Shown here piece by piece: positions 1 to 5,232 of a DNA stretch of 5,232 bases. Below the pieces are notes generated by a model, which searched no databases, had not been told where the DNA came from, and worked only from the letters and a program-made list of their open reading frames with translations. Position 1 is the stretch's first letter; each line of letters opens with the position of its first letter. Both the position numbers and the translations under genes were made by a program. Source of the stretch: Bacillota bacterium (GTDB lineage: Bacteria > Bacillota > Clostridia > Tissierellales > Peptoniphilaceae); NCBI GenBank assembly GCA_023394215.1, contig JAEXBH010000009.1:1-5232 (forward strand), read 5' to 3'.

Positions 1-1634
1 GTTCAAAGACTATTCCTTTTAACCAATACTATGAACAGGCTGTATTGAAAAATATTTCTCCGGGAACAGGTTATTTAAATATACCTGATAAGCTTAAGGA
101 AGAGGGAATAGAGGAAATTGCTCCAAGCGTTACCTTTACTGCGGCGGTTTCAAAAGCGGGTAAGTTTTATATCTGGGGAAAAAATTATGAAAATGTATTC
201 TCTATTCCAGCAGATATTCAAAAGAGATTGGATAGCGAGCACATATCCCATGTTGCAGCAGGTCCTACCTTTATAATAGTAGCAAATGACAAGAACGAGA
301 TATTTGGTTGGGGTACAAATGCCTACGGAGAATCTCAAGCTCCTTCTAAAAACTATAATCTTGTTTTAAAAGAAGGTGTAAAGAAGTTGGTTGCGGGAGA
401 CCTTTACTCAGCTGTTCTTACAAACGAAGGAAGACTTATAACTTGGGGTGGAGTGAAGCCGAGTAAGTTAAATATTATACCTAAGGCTATACAAGGGCAT
501 ATTACAAATATAGAGGCATCTATCCTAAATATACTTGCAATGACCGATGACGGTAAAATTCATGTTTTAGGTATAAAGTCAGGGGAATTGGGAACAGAAC
601 TTCCAAAAGACTTGGCTGAAGGAAAGATTAAAATAGTTGATATAGCTTTAACTGAAAAGAACGGTTTGGCCCTTGGAGAAGACGGAAAGTTATACCAATG
701 GGGTTCAAATATAGACAGTATACCTAAGCCTCCTGAAGGAAACTTTAAGGAAATTGAAGGTGGACGTGTACACTTTACCGCTCTTGATACAGAGGGGAAA
801 ATGCATGCATGGGGAGCTGATAAGTATGGAGAAACAAAGGCTATCAGCGGAACTTTTGATAAGTTGGCAAGCGGATATTTTATAAATTATGCTATAAATA
901 CTGAAACAAAGGAAGTTGGAGCCAGCGGTTTGGACGGCTTTACTTTCGGTACCGACCAAAGAGGTAGGGACCAGCTTACAAGATTGATACATGGTGGAGC
1001 TACTACCTTGTTTATTGCTCTTGTTGCGGTCAGTCTTCAAGTTATTATAGGCGTTATTATAGGGATGATAGCCGGTTTTTACGGGGGGTTGGTAGACAAC
1101 CTACTTATGAGATTTGCTGAAATCATAGCGTCTTTCCCGTTCTATCCTTTGGTAATTACCATATCGGCAGCCTTGCCTGTAGACACTTCTCAGGACGTTA
1201 GAATCCTTATTATAATGATTTTGCTTGGTTTACTTGGTTGGACAGGTATAGCAAGATTGGTAAGGGCACAAATTTTATCTGAAAGGGAAAAAGACTATGT
1301 TTTAGCGGCTAAAGCATTGGGCTTGAGAGAAAGAAAAATCATAGTAAATCATATTCTTCCAAATATATTTACTATAGTTATAGTGCAAGCAACCTTGGGC
1401 TATGCATCAAATCTTCTTACAGAAGCGGGACTTTCATTCCTTGGTTTCGGGGTTGTGGAACCGAACGCATCTTGGGGTAATATGATGACAGCAGCACAAT
1501 CAACGGAAGTAATGCAACTTTATTGGTGGAGATGGGTTATCCCTTCAATGGCAATATTCCTAACAGCATTGTCAGTAAACTTGGTTGGAGATGCATTGAG
1601 AGACGCTTTAGATCCAAAATCACAAGAAAGGTAG
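1..1634 (+). CDS. oppC: OppC/DppC-type peptide ABC transporter permease with inserted RCC1-like propeller (5' partial)
   Basis: This is a membrane permease subunit of an oligopeptide/dipeptide importer, expected to pair with an OppB-type subunit. The frame is open to the left edge (first full codon at position 3). The TTG at 45 has no ribosome binding site and lies inside sequence resembling the OppC pre-GTD loop (QYYEQAVLKNISP), so the true start and TM1 lie upstream. Numbering from the TTG codon: residues 12-298 form seven RCC1-like repeats; 302-309 are the family motif GTDQRGRD; hydrophobic spans lie near 319-345, 358-379, 385-406, 440-458 and 497-515; the EAA coupling loop (AAKALGLRERK and following) covers 421-440; the C-terminus DALDP is typical. 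There is no cysteine in the visible 529 residues. Ordinary OppC proteins are about 300 residues, so the excess is the propeller. Substrate (oligopeptide, dipeptide or a metal chelate) cannot be told from this subunit. Confidence 0.95.
   Translation, partial: SKTIPFNQYYEQAVLKNISPGTGYLNIPDKLKEEGIEEIAPSVTFTAAVSKAGKFYIWGKNYENVFSIPADIQKRLDSEHISHVAAGPTFIIVANDKNEIFGWGTNAYGESQAPSKNYNLVLKEGVKKLVAGDLYSAVLTNEGRLITWGGVKPSKLNIIPKAIQGHITNIEASILNILAMTDDGKIHVLGIKSGELGTELPKDLAEGKIKIVDIALTEKNGLALGEDGKLYQWGSNIDSIPKPPEGNFKEIEGGRVHFTALDTEGKMHAWGADKYGETKAISGTFDKLASGYFINYAINTETKEVGASGLDGFTFGTDQRGRDQLTRLIHGGATTLFIALVAVSLQVIIGVIIGMIAGFYGGLVDNLLMRFAEIIASFPFYPLVITISAALPVDTSQDVRILIIMILLGLLGWTGIARLVRAQILSEREKDYVLAAKALGLRERKIIVNHILPNIFTIVIVQATLGYASNLLTEAGLSFLGFGVVEPNASWGNMMTAAQSTEVMQLYWWRWVIPSMAIFLTALSVNLVGDALRDALDPKSQER
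78..938 (+). other. RCC1-like seven-repeat beta-propeller domain inside the permease
   Basis: This is a domain within the permease gene. Seven units of 37-45 residues each follow the RCC1 pattern: a small-residue strand (for example FTAAV, YSAVL, FTALD), a turn such as EGR, DGK or EGK, then a hydrophobic strand ending in WG, often followed by N or D and YGE. Counting from the TTG at 45, WG lies at residues 44, 89, 134, 219 and 256. Unit 4 has LG at 175 and unit 7 has SG at 294, so these two are degenerate. Seven units match the usual closed seven-bladed RCC1 propeller. By the normal six-span OppC topology the TM1-TM2 loop is outside the cell, so the propeller should be extracellular; this placement is inferred. 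Ligand unknown: it could be a peptide, a cell-wall component or the binding lipoprotein. Confidence 0.88.
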
Positions 1635-1637
1635 GAG
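1633..1637 (+). promoter_or_regulatory. Ribosome binding site of oppD
   Basis: AGGAG overlaps the TAG stop codon of the permease and lies 4 bases before the ATG at 1642. The rather short spacing and the overlap with the upstream stop suggest translational coupling of oppD to the permease gene. Confidence 0.75.
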
Positions 1638-1641
1638 TAAT

Positions 1642-2637
1642 ATGGCTTTATTAGAAATAAAAGACTTACACACCTATTTTAATACTTCAAGGGGTCTGAT
1701 TAAGGCGGTAGATGGAGTTAGTTTAAGTGTGGAAGAAGGAAAGACTTTGGGTGTAGTAGGAGAATCCGGCTCAGGGAAGAGTCAAACAGCCATGTCTATT
1801 CTGAGATTATTTGAAAAGAATCAAAAAATATATAGTGGAAGTGTTTGGTTTGAAGGTAAGAACATTACGGAAACTACCGAGAAGGAAATGAGGGATATAA
1901 GAGGAAACGATATTTCTATGATTTTCCAAGAACCTATGACTTCATTGAATCCTGTATTTACAATAGAAAAGCAGCTTTGTGAAGCTTTGATGCTTCACAG
2001 GGATATGAATAAGCAACAGGCTAAGGAAAGGGCGGTTGAACTTTTGGGTATGGTAAAAATTCCAAATCCTGAAGTTGTTGTTAAGCAATATCCTTTCCAA
2101 TTATCAGGCGGGATGAACCAAAGAGCTATGATTGCCATGGCATTGGCTTGTGAACCTAAGCTTCTTATAGCTGATGAACCTACAACAGCCTTGGATGTAA
2201 CGATTCAAGCTCAAATATTGAAGCTTATGAATGACCTTAAGAAGGAAAAAGGAACATCTATTCTGTTTATAACTCACGATTTAGGAGTTATAAATCAAAT
2301 GGCGGATGAGGTGGCTGTAATGTATGCCGGACAGGTTGTAGAACAATCGCCTGTAAATTACATTTTCCAAGAAAATGCTACAAGATTCCAACATCCTTAT
2401 ACTGAGGGCTTACTTGGATCTATTCCTTCAATAACTTCAGACAGATCAAAGAGACTTGATATAATTGAAGGTTCGGTACCGCATCCTTTGGCTATGCCTA
2501 AAGGTTGCAGATTTGCCGCAAGATGTAAGTATTCTACACAAAAATGTATAGATGAAGAACCTCAATTACAAAAGGTTGCAGAAAATCAAATTATCAGATG
2601 TTTCTATCCTGAAAAGGGGGTAAGAAATGGAAAATAA
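1642..2637 (+). CDS. oppD: Peptide ABC transporter ATP-binding protein OppD/DppD
   Basis: This is one of the two cytoplasmic ATPases that drive peptide import; it pairs with OppF and couples to the EAA loops of the permeases. The 331-residue length is normal for the family. Visible motifs: Walker A GESGSGKS at 40-47, Q-loop Q96 in IFQEPMTSLNP, signature LSGGM at 154-158, Walker B LLIADE with catalytic Glu at 174-179, D-loop ALD at 183-185 and switch His212 in ITHDLG. The C-terminal oligopeptide-transporter extension has four cysteines (289, 295, 302, 320) in the GCRFAARC...KC...RC arrangement; this motif binds an Fe-S cluster in structurally studied relatives. The start at ATG 1642 is set by AGGAG just upstream and by the first family strand ALLEIKDL. 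The signature continues as MNQR, where MRQR is common. It follows the permease by 7 bases and overlaps oppF by 11. Confidence 0.97.
   Translation: MALLEIKDLHTYFNTSRGLIKAVDGVSLSVEEGKTLGVVGESGSGKSQTAMSILRLFEKNQKIYSGSVWFEGKNITETTEKEMRDIRGNDISMIFQEPMTSLNPVFTIEKQLCEALMLHRDMNKQQAKERAVELLGMVKIPNPEVVVKQYPFQLSGGMNQRAMIAMALACEPKLLIADEPTTALDVTIQAQILKLMNDLKKEKGTSILFITHDLGVINQMADEVAVMYAGQVVEQSPVNYIFQENATRFQHPYTEGLLGSIPSITSDRSKRLDIIEGSVPHPLAMPKGCRFAARCKYSTQKCIDEEPQLQKVAENQIIRCFYPEKGVRNGK
2614..2620 (+). promoter_or_regulatory. Ribosome binding site of oppF inside the oppD 3' end
   Basis: AAGGGGG lies within the last codons of oppD, 6 bases before the ATG at 2627. It fixes the oppF start and the 11-base gene overlap, which implies coupled translation of the two ATPases. 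Confidence 0.75.
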
Positions 2638-4189
2638 TCAAAAGAAGGTATTACTTTCAGTTAAAAACTTAAAAAAATATTTCCCTATAAAAAAGAGGGC
2701 GTTTGAAAGAAAGCAAAGATATGTAAGGGCCAACGAATCCATTACTCTTGAGATTTATGAAGGGGAAACGCTTGGTCTTGTAGGAGAATCGGGTTGTGGA
2801 AAGTCTACTTTCGGTAGAACTTTAATCCAGTTGTATTCTCAAACAGGCGGTTCAACCTTGTATTATGGAAGGACCTTGGCTGAGTTCGCACCTAAGTATG
2901 TAGCCGATTCTATAAAAAATATTCCCAAGCTTTATCCTAAGTTTAAAGTTGAGTCTCAGGAGTATGAAAAACTTTTGGCCGATTTGGAAAAGGCAGGGGC
3001 TGAAGATAGAGCTTCTTTGGAAGAAAAAGCTATAAATAAAAGAAGAGAAATCGAGGATAAGTATTTCAGCATATTAAGAATTGCCGGAGGACTTTTAGTC
3101 CATGATAACCTTGAGAAAGTAGCATCAACCCTTATGGAAAATTATCAGGAAAAGGTTAAATTGGCTGATTTCCAAAAGCAAATAGAACTTAGTGAATTAA
3201 GGCTTAAGGATGATCATTTCAAAGATAAGCACGCTGAAATAGAAAAGACATTACAAGACTTAAAGATAAAGAGGGATTATCAGGCAAATGAAGTTGAACT
3301 TAGGGACAAGCTTTTAGCCGACATGAAGGCGGAACTTCAAAATTATCCTGATTTTGAAAGGCTTGAAGCGGAATATGATTTGGGTATAGATCTTTCAAAG
3401 CTTACAACTTCAGAAATGAGAGAGCTTAGAAAAGAATTGCAAATGATTTTCCAAGATCCTTATTCATCCTTGGATACCAAGATGACTGTAGGAAACATAA
3501 TTGGGGAAGGCGTTCTTGCTCACGATATGTTTAAATCAAACAAGTCTGAAGAATATGATGCCTATATCAAGGAAGTAATGAAGCAATGTGGTTTGGCTGA
3601 ATACTTTATTCACAGATATCCTCATCAATTCTCAGGGGGACAAAGACAAAGAATAGGTATAGCCAGAGCCTTGGCTTTAAAGCCTAAATTTATAGTTGCG
3701 GATGAGGCTGTATCAGCCCTTGACGTATCTATTCAGTCACAGGTTATAAATTTGCTTCAAGACTTAAAGGAAAGCAACAACCTTACTTACCTGTTTATAA
3801 CTCACGATTTATCGGTAGTAAAATATATATCTGACAGGATTGGGGTAATGTATCTTGGAAATTTAGTTGAGCTTACGGATTCCGATAAGTTGTTTGCTAA
3901 GCCGCTTCACCCTTATACACAAGCCCTATTAGCAGCTATTCCGAGAACCGATGTTGAAAATAATCAAGATTTGGTAATACTTGAAGGAGATATACCGTCA
4001 GCGGTAAACCCTCCTAAGGGATGTAAGTTCCATACAAGATGTAAGTATGCTATGCCTAAATGTTCGGAATTTGAACCGATATGGCAAGAGCAGGAAGAAA
4101 GCCATTTTGTAGCTTGTCACTTATATGTTATGGACTCCGACGAAAGACAAGTTCATATGGACAAGGTTGATCAAAAGAGCTTTGCTTAA
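2627..4189 (+). CDS. oppF: Peptide ABC transporter ATP-binding protein OppF/DppF with large helical insertion
   Basis: This is the second cytoplasmic ATPase of the importer, forming a heterodimer with OppD. At 520 residues it is far longer than the usual 310-340. Visible motifs: Walker A GESGCGKS at 53-60, Q-loop Q276 in MIFQDPYSSLD, signature FSGGQRQR at 335-342, Walker B FIVADE at 355-360, D-loop ALD at 364-366 and His393 in ITHDLS. The C-terminal four-cysteine motif is complete (466, 472, 479, 497), as in OppD. The opening LKKYFPIKK and the Q-loop context identify it as OppF rather than a second OppD. Extra sequence occupies about residues 84-251, between the strand STLYYGRT and GIDLSKLTTSEMR. 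The residue after the Walker B glutamate is Ala (DEAVSALD), where the family normally has Pro. The frame is continuous and all motifs are intact, so the insertion is not a frameshift artefact. Confidence 0.96.
   Translation: MENNQKKVLLSVKNLKKYFPIKKRAFERKQRYVRANESITLEIYEGETLGLVGESGCGKSTFGRTLIQLYSQTGGSTLYYGRTLAEFAPKYVADSIKNIPKLYPKFKVESQEYEKLLADLEKAGAEDRASLEEKAINKRREIEDKYFSILRIAGGLLVHDNLEKVASTLMENYQEKVKLADFQKQIELSELRLKDDHFKDKHAEIEKTLQDLKIKRDYQANEVELRDKLLADMKAELQNYPDFERLEAEYDLGIDLSKLTTSEMRELRKELQMIFQDPYSSLDTKMTVGNIIGEGVLAHDMFKSNKSEEYDAYIKEVMKQCGLAEYFIHRYPHQFSGGQRQRIGIARALALKPKFIVADEAVSALDVSIQSQVINLLQDLKESNNLTYLFITHDLSVVKYISDRIGVMYLGNLVELTDSDKLFAKPLHPYTQALLAAIPRTDVENNQDLVILEGDIPSAVNPPKGCKFHTRCKYAMPKCSEFEPIWQEQEESHFVACHLYVMDSDERQVHMDKVDQKSFA
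2876..3379 (+). other. Helical/coiled-coil insertion within OppF
   Basis: About 168 residues (OppF 84-251) interrupt the beta-subdomain between Walker A and the Q-loop. The stretch is rich in Glu, Lys, Leu and Ala with heptad-like spacing in several runs (for example YEKLLADLEKA, KQIELSELRLKDD, EIEKTLQDLKIKRD, LLADMKAELQ). This suggests two or more long antiparallel helices joined by a less charged middle (FSILRIAGGLLVHDN). I recognise no named domain in it. In an ordinary OppF, the strand GEILFDG and the GKDIS-type segment follow each other directly here, so the boundaries are clear to within a few residues. The segment should lie on the cytoplasmic side; its function is unknown. Confidence 0.82.
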
Positions 4190-4198
4190 GAAATCCTT

Positions 4199-4202
4199 AA
4201 GG
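4199..4202 (+). promoter_or_regulatory. Ribosome binding site of the small membrane protein gene
   Basis: AAGG lies 7 bases before the ATG at 4210 and within the palindrome CCTTAAGG. It supports translation of the short gene, although the match is weaker than at the other starts in this window. Confidence 0.55.
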
Positions 4203-4209
4203 TAAAGAT

Positions 4210-4410
4210 ATGTTTAATAAAAAAAGAGACGACAAGAGCGAATTCGGTAAATTGAGTGAAGAGGAAAAAAAGAAAAGACTGGAGGAATTTAGAAATTCTT
4301 TGGATAAGGATGACGAAAGAGCTATGATATTTGCGGCTTTAAAGACATTCTTGCCGCCAGTGTTGGTATTTTTACTTATAATATACTTATTTGCCAAACT
4401 ACTTGGATAA
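4210..4410 (+). CDS. Small single-span membrane protein of unknown function, last gene of the opp operon
   Basis: This is a 66-residue protein that I do not assign to a named family. Residues 1-37 are highly charged and probably helical (LSEEEKKKRLEEFRNSLDKDDER). Residues 47-65 form one hydrophobic span with a Pro-Pro kink at 49-50 (FLPPVLVFLLIIYLFAKLL), leaving essentially no tail. There is no signal peptide or lipobox, so a cytoplasmic N-terminus with a C-terminal anchor is likely. Evidence that it is a real gene: AAGG at proper spacing, only 20 bases after oppF, a typical coding composition, and a terminator starting 6 bases after its stop. The opposite strand is also open across much of this region, but that frame has no visible start signals and encodes a low-complexity Ser/Leu/Asn protein, so it is a shadow. 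A role as a small accessory or stability subunit of the transporter is only inferred from position. Confidence 0.8.
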   Translation: MFNKKRDDKSEFGKLSEEEKKKRLEEFRNSLDKDDERAMIFAALKTFLPPVLVFLLIIYLFAKLLG

Positions 4411-4415
4411 GATTT

Positions 4416-4444
4416 AAGAGCGGGCTAAGAGCCTGCTCTTTTTT
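4416..4444 (+). terminator. Rho-independent terminator of the opp operon
   Basis: The stem AAGAGCGGGC (4416-4425) pairs with GCCTGCTCTT (4431-4440) over ten base pairs, one of them a G-U wobble, around the five-base loop TAAGA. A run of six T follows (4439-4444, the first two shared with the stem). It begins 6 bases after the stop of the small membrane protein gene. The reverse direction lacks a comparable T run, so it should act on the plus strand only. Confidence 0.92.
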
Positions 4445-4495
4445 AGTGGAATATTTTATAGATTTTTATTTATTTTTCAAATATAATTGATTTTT

Positions 4496-4524
4496 TTGAC
4501 ATAAATTTGATGATTTGATAAGCT
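4496..4524 (+). promoter_or_regulatory. Predicted sigma-A promoter of the lipoprotein gene
   Basis: A perfect -35 box TTGACA (4496-4501) is followed by a 17-base spacer and TAAGCT (4519-4524), which keeps the T, A and final T of the -10 consensus and is preceded by an extended -10 TG at 4516-4517. Upstream sequence is very AT-rich and could act as an UP element. A perfect TATAAT at 4545-4550 is an alternative -10 but has no recognisable -35 at the right distance. Transcription from the first promoter would give a leader of about 70 bases before the ATG at 4603. No riboswitch or strong hairpin is evident in the rest of this 158-base intergenic region. Confidence 0.65.
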
Positions 4525-4591
4525 AAAGATGAAGGGGCAGTTTATATAATTACCTAAATAGTTGAGAAGCCTTGTTAAGTAAGATAAGTAA

Positions 4592-4596
4592 AGGAG
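4592..4596 (+). promoter_or_regulatory. Ribosome binding site of the lipoprotein gene
   Basis: AGGAG, part of AAAGGAG, lies 6 bases before the ATG at 4603 and decides this start. The signal peptide begins directly from it. Confidence 0.85.
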
Positions 4597-4602
4597 AATA
4601 AT

Positions 4603-5232
4603 ATGAACTTTAAAAATTTAAGCAAATTTTTCTTGTCTGTATCTGTTGTTATATTCTGCTTTATTCTTGTAGCTTGTAATTCAAGTGATAAGAAGGCAAA
4701 TGAGGATACTCAAAAGCAGGTTCAGGAAGAGAAAACCGGTGAAGATAAGAAAAAGCCGAGTGATGGGTTGATAAAAGATATTATTTCAGATTTTGATATA
4801 AGGGGGTTGGATGGATATGTTGTTGATGAAACCGAAACAGGATATCTGATTCATAAGGAGGCAATCGAACTTGAACTTGATAAAAATCACAGGGTAATGA
4901 ATTTTGACGGCACCTACAATTTAAATAAAAATATTGCAAGCAAGTATAATTCTTTAGATGAAGTGATAAAGATGCTTTTTGATAAGGGCTATGTTAGTGG
5001 GGACTATGAGTTCAACAGAAAGTATCCCATAATGGATGCCGGATATTCGGTATTTCTTGCTAAGAAGTATCCTAATGGTATATTTAATCCCTATGATTGT
5101 ATAAAATTTTCTTTTGAAACGCAAACAAATAGGTTGATGAGTTTTAACAGAATTGAAGAGTATGTTGCCGAGGATAATCCTAAGTTATCAAAGGAAGAGG
5201 CAAGCCATATAGCAGTGGAAGCTTTACAAGAT
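4603..5232 (+). CDS. Secreted lipoprotein of unknown function (3' partial), possible PepSY/YcdB-like segment
   Basis: The frame is open from the ATG at 4603 to the right edge, 210 codons without a stop, so the gene continues beyond the window. Residues 1-25 are a lipoprotein signal: Lys at 4 and 8, a hydrophobic core, and the lipobox LVAC with Cys25 as the lipidated residue. Residues 26-53 form a Lys/Glu/Asp-rich linker, and a folded domain follows from about residue 54. Its visible end, a strand KFSFETQTNRLMSFNR followed by LSKEEASHIAVEALQ, resembles the strand-then-helix layout of PepSY/YcdB-type repeats; this is a weak family guess. It should be anchored to the outer face of the membrane. 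The gene has its own promoter and is separated from the opp operon by a terminator, so a shared function is not implied. It does not look like an OppA-type binding protein in the visible part. Confidence 0.88.
   Translation, partial: MNFKNLSKFFLSVSVVIFCFILVACNSSDKKANEDTQKQVQEEKTGEDKKKPSDGLIKDIISDFDIRGLDGYVVDETETGYLIHKEAIELELDKNHRVMNFDGTYNLNKNIASKYNSLDEVIKMLFDKGYVSGDYEFNRKYPIMDAGYSVFLAKKYPNGIFNPYDCIKFSFETQTNRLMSFNRIEEYVAEDNPKLSKEEASHIAVEALQD

Follow-up and report, generated by a model that had tools for sequence, protein, structure and literature searches.

A predicted RCC1/BLIP-II-like propeller in the extracellular loop of clostridial OppC permeases, accompanied by an armed OppF

What might a beta-propeller be doing inside the channel subunit of a peptide importer? 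The question is raised by a 5,232-nucleotide stretch of a Peptoniphilaceae genome (contig JAEXBH010000009.1, positions 1 to 5,232, forward strand; hereafter the window), in which Pfam matches and a full-length relative, P0001, identify the first open reading frame (ORF; 3..1634, +) as an OppC-type permease with an RCC1-like insert. This ORF is open at the window start and stops at 1634, its 5′ end being cut by the window edge. It matches residues 66-608 of P0001 (608 amino acids, 99% identical), which adds the cytoplasmic N-terminus and the first transmembrane segment (TM1). An earlier note, made from the sequence alone, had placed the repeats in the TM1-TM2 loop; the window begins just after TM1, and that position is borne out in P0001, from which, and not from the window itself, it is read. 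The combined evidence supports an OppC core that is intact and holds, in this extracellular loop, a complete, predicted RCC1/BLIP-II-like propeller (after beta-lactamase inhibitory protein II, BLIP-II).

The predicted propeller occupies 108..929 (+; P0001 residues 101-374), behind a linker from TM1 to blade 1 (12..107, +; P0001 residues 69-100, delimited by AlphaFold2 secondary structure), and its seven predicted blades lie at 108-179, 243-314, 378-449, 501-572, 633-704, 744-815 and 861-929 (all +). These agree with the seven RCC1-type repeats, five with a clear WG, that the note had counted: five of the seven blades end in WG, blade 4 in LG and blade 7 in SG. Pfam detects RCC1_2 (PF13540) in four stretches with 78.5 bits (cut-off 22; E 2.4e-22), as well as WD40_RLD (PF25390) with a score of 105.1 (E 6.3e-30), below its cut-off of 150. 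A structure prediction of the full-length protein likewise yields seven three-stranded blades, the final strand of which passes straight into the GTDQRGRD motif. A fold search with this AlphaFold2 model matched solved propellers, BLIP-II being the nearest; the fold is a predicted rather than a solved one, and closure of the ring is taken from the BLIP-II match and not read from coordinates.

The permease core (948..1631, +) opens with GTDQRGRD at base 948 and continues through an EAA-type sequence to DALDP, intact and in frame with the repeats as the note had it, and BPD_transp_1 (PF00528) is matched at 106.5 bits against a cut-off of 26.4 (E 1.8e-30). The RCC1_2 and BPD_transp_1 scores are both more than chance. 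The P0001 model overlays Escherichia coli OppC over 31..603 (278/278), such that TM1 precedes the core as in solved OppC, and Pfam detects OppC_N in four relatives (L001, L094, L100 and L101). The best NCBIfam match is Opp4C, at a score (298.9) under the equivalog cut-off of 350; the insert lets only profile positions 52-278 align. Two relatives without an insert score above this cut-off, L223 at 404.5 and L224 at 384.2. The ORF encodes the OppC channel subunit of a likely oligopeptide ATP-binding cassette (ABC) importer.

That the window begins inside the ORF, and that WG is lost in blades 4 and 7, would fit an assembly join, a frameshift artefact or a decaying insert, an explanation that we find scarcely credible. 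Both domains are present in all 120 homologues listed of 1957 for the window-type query (named relatives: Anaerococcus, Ndongobacter and Tissierellia) and in all 120 listed of 3299 for a sister-type query (including Tissierella, Soehngenia, Proteiniborus and Caldicoprobacter), so that none of the 240 points to a frameshift or join at the RCC1-permease border. Genome searches with the propeller recovered it in a permease-length frame in 11/188 genomes of one order, 44/130 of one family and 17/391 of a class draw, with no internal stops in the matches listed; one genome (G010) has a shorter, 479-residue propeller frame cut by the contig end. In 51 related pairs, omega has a median of 0.109 for the propeller and 0.035 for the permease, and the blade W, G and P residues are conserved across 63 sequences, a set that excludes the window and L020, both of which are cut. 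The insert is thus under purifying selection, and with both domains in 240/240 homologues listed we reject an assembly join. The other RCC1 matches, from 10 of the 27 matched genomes of the class draw, lie in other proteins, none of which recurs in a permease-core search at E 1e-53, and were set aside. One genome (G583) has a second propeller OppC (L119) in an oppB-oppC-oppA set with no oppD or oppF within the 19-kb stretch; this set may rely on ATPases encoded by the complete operon, L118.

In permease-core trees, 60 propeller cores (near-identical ones merged) form one clade with support of 100/99, divided into two subclades, one of 23 rows and one of 37, the window belonging to the latter; one genome (G404; L101 and L154), whose motif is spelled differently, dropped out of these trees. 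Twenty-one OppCs whose large ectodomain is of another type, here labeled REP, constitute a separate clade (100/98), the label being set by length (OppC of at least 515 residues without RCC1, plus the fragment L229) and nine of the sequences being checked by eye. These clostridial OppCs resemble the propeller type in carrying a large extracellular insert in the same loop of a related core; they differ in having no RCC1 repeats and an OppF without an arm (see below). Plain OppCs stand between the two clades, which implies that on the core tree the TM1-TM2 loop was filled at least twice, and one and the same OppC loop has accordingly received unrelated domains at least that often. The REP proteins (L198-L218 and L229; about 520-660 residues) display an unnamed, repeat-like ectodomain with units such as FxYxGxxYxI, for which no Pfam domain exceeded its cut-off in the 3 of 21 scanned, and their operons feature a long OppD and, where seen, a long OppA. 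A third, shorter kind of insert (about 145 residues) occupies the same loop in L176:4355-5680 and L222:5494-6816.

The genes for the two ATPases follow the permease directly: oppD (1642..2637, +), without an insert (Walker A to Q-loop spacing 56), and oppF (2627..4189, +), assigned by motif spacing, Pfam and a fold match to E. coli OppF. Both products contain PF00005 and the oligo_HPY tail (PF08352). The genes oppA and oppB, found in relatives' operons, would lie upstream of the window. The window OppF reaches 520 residues because 223 residues separate its Walker A motif from its Q-loop; a segment between the two (2867..3406, +) contains an arm, absent from the note's account, that is predicted to consist of long helices (OppF residues 99-122, 125-158, 162-194 and 196-237; blocks with a predicted local distance difference test score of 76-97). 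A fold search of OppF retrieves ordinary ABC ATPases, including E. coli OppF, with a gap at the arm; nine weak coiled-coil PDB matches to a sequence profile of the arm (E 7e-4 to 0.01) were read as composition and discarded. The spacing is 197-239 in 41/41 readable OppF rows of propeller loci (L001 and L102 being one locus) and 51-53, without the arm, in 33/33 readable OppFs of related operons (36 loci, of which two lack OppF on their contig and a third is unreadable). An arm profile matched 44/130 family genomes, exactly the 44 with the propeller, and 19/391 class genomes, namely the 17 with the propeller, G412 and G287. The G412 match (E 8e-6) is an unrelated 450-residue protein; in G287 the arm is seen without a propeller on a contig that ends inside oppD. 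Combining the family and class searches, which share three genomes, 58/58 propeller genomes have the arm.

What, then, does the propeller do? RCC1 propellers are protein-binding modules with many kinds of partner. The earlier note had offered docking of OppA, direct capture of substrate or tethering to the cell wall, and of these docking is, by indirect inference, the best supported; we put it at about an even chance that the propeller is a platform for the peptide-loaded lipoprotein OppA. It is the best reading because a rigid propeller on a leash, a protein-binding superfamily and a binding protein encoded in the same operon coincide. The predicted last strand continues directly into GTDQRGRD, which would hold the propeller on a short leash at the channel mouth. 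There, its face would bind OppA beside the mouth, raising the local concentration of loaded OppA or setting its orientation, and the peptide would then be moved by ordinary Opp chemistry, through the OppB/OppC pore with the OppD/OppF ATPases. On this docking reading, the OppF arm would have arisen as an independent adaptation on the cytoplasmic side, fixed in the ancestor that also fixed the propeller.

OppA measures 603-866 residues in propeller operons (leaving out the 405-residue fragment L090), 557-633 in nine plain operons and 766-822 in three operons with the other ectodomain. A charged, likely helical OppA segment of 100-153 residues is found in 22/22 rows of the window's subclade and corresponds to 33-48 residues in 23/23 rows of the other (oppA of the window's operon is not among these, as it falls beyond the window edge, and L101, not in the tree, was grouped with the other subclade by its OppA). 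As a universal partner of the propeller this insert is rejected, being absent from the sister subclade. Partial distance correlations over 34 loci, computed from related, non-independent pairs and carrying no significance test, are 0.39 for propeller and OppA (0.40 and 0.55 within subclades), 0.32 for propeller and OppB (0.28 and 0.42) and lowest, at 0.21 (-0.04 and 0.13), for propeller and arm; they lean weakly towards an outside partner. Several points weigh against docking. The non-independence of those pairs is one, and OppA and OppB correlate likewise, at 0.32 (0.31 and 0.48 within subclades). The OppA insert, missing from the sister subclade, is not required for the propeller's role there; conservation is lower in the propeller than in the core (0.55 vs 0.75; omega 0.109 vs 0.035); the partners of RCC1 propellers are of many kinds; and docking leaves unexplained the cytoplasmic arm that accompanies the propeller. 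As a separate observation, the OppAs of L101:12308-14710 and L100:5868-8147 look circularly permuted, the usually C-terminal segment with the PLYSN motif preceding the body (L101 175-216 aligns with L094 572-613, and L101 241-794 with L094 51-556).

The chief rival to docking is a regulator in which the outside propeller and the inside arm work as a functional pair: by sensing a ligand or partner outside the cell, they would gate the importer or gather it into clusters, so that it would also report on peptides. The two share the same 44/130 and the same 17/391 genomes, and the arm is in 41/41 readable OppFs of propeller loci and 0/33 of related operons; yet both genes are neighbors in one operon of single origin, such that joint inheritance alone gives this pattern and co-occurrence is no proof of joint function. 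Propeller and arm distances, moreover, show next to no correlation after the core is factored out, and G287 displays an arm without a propeller, although its contig ends inside oppD. We consider such a regulator unlikely, and are equally doubtful of its obligate form, in which the device would dock loaded OppA at the mouth, signal its occupancy across the membrane to the OppF arm and in this way gate ATP use or cluster importers, a design that would have persisted from the ancestor shared by the two subclades. The passage of the last blade into GTDQRGRD, and hence its nearness to the mouth, would also suit a propeller that itself captures substrate or serves as a lid on the channel, but oppA is retained in the operon and already supplies binding, which makes this quite improbable. 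A tether holding the importer to the cell wall, or to some other surface protein such as a peptidase, draws on the protein-binding habit of RCC1 propellers and on BLIP-II as the nearest fold. Against it, Pfam finds nothing in the ORF that would bind the wall, and no additional gene for a surface protein stood out as conserved in the operons, whose neighbors were not surveyed systematically; we rate it very unlikely. Docking to OppA stays our preferred reading.

The individual parts are already known: the Opp importer, the RCC1/BLIP-II propeller and permease ectodomains. The system resembles the clostridial OppABCDF importer (nearest NCBIfam Opp4C) in its permease core, oligo_HPY tails of OppD and OppF and operon order, and departs from it in the roughly 300-residue propeller in the OppC loop and the arm in OppF. 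BLIP-II, the fold nearest to the predicted propeller, inhibits as a free protein after secretion; ours is built into a membrane permease, and we claim for it neither beta-lactamase inhibition nor Ran exchange. A further parallel is the pneumococcal Ami importer, whose AmiC we take to correspond to OppB. The ectodomains ECD1 and ECD2 (residues 31-278) belong to AmiC itself (498 residues, vs 308 for AmiD) and are proposed, from AlphaFold-Multimer models, to clamp and recognize the binding protein (PMC11192437). Ami is likewise a case of a permease subunit with an ectodomain proposed to engage the binding protein; in our system, however, the ectodomain is an RCC1 propeller and sits on OppC, not on the B (AmiC-type) subunit, OppB measuring 284-422 residues in the propeller loci. 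The combination of propeller and permease is abundant in databases, plainly named ABC transporter permease subunit, and we found no published description of it in open-licence PMC papers. With it, the RCC1 propeller joins the ectodomains known from ABC permeases and is linked to an arm of the ATPase that had not been described. In Opp importers it is not yet settled how the binding protein reaches the permease and departs from it, and a subunit bearing a rigid propeller that can be separated from it opens this question to direct testing.

Just 3′ of oppF, the window encodes a small ORF of 66 residues (4210..4410, +) with one predicted transmembrane segment, in a position conserved in related operons. 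Its homologues follow oppF in 38/42 arm/propeller-type loci that have the oppF end on the contig (33 of these 38 built the profile, and one, L140, shows no oppC). Weaker homologues (E 6e-9 to 0.0075) in 12/37 control loci led us to reject it as a propeller-specific subunit. No convincing Pfam or NCBIfam family was found for it, a hit of its relative L112 to PF09124 (26.3 vs 22) being read as chance; it is possibly an overlooked sixth product of Opp operons. Further downstream, the start of a lipoprotein-like ORF (4603-5232, +), open at the right edge of the window, has a sub-threshold match to YcdB/YcdC repeats (E 0.011).
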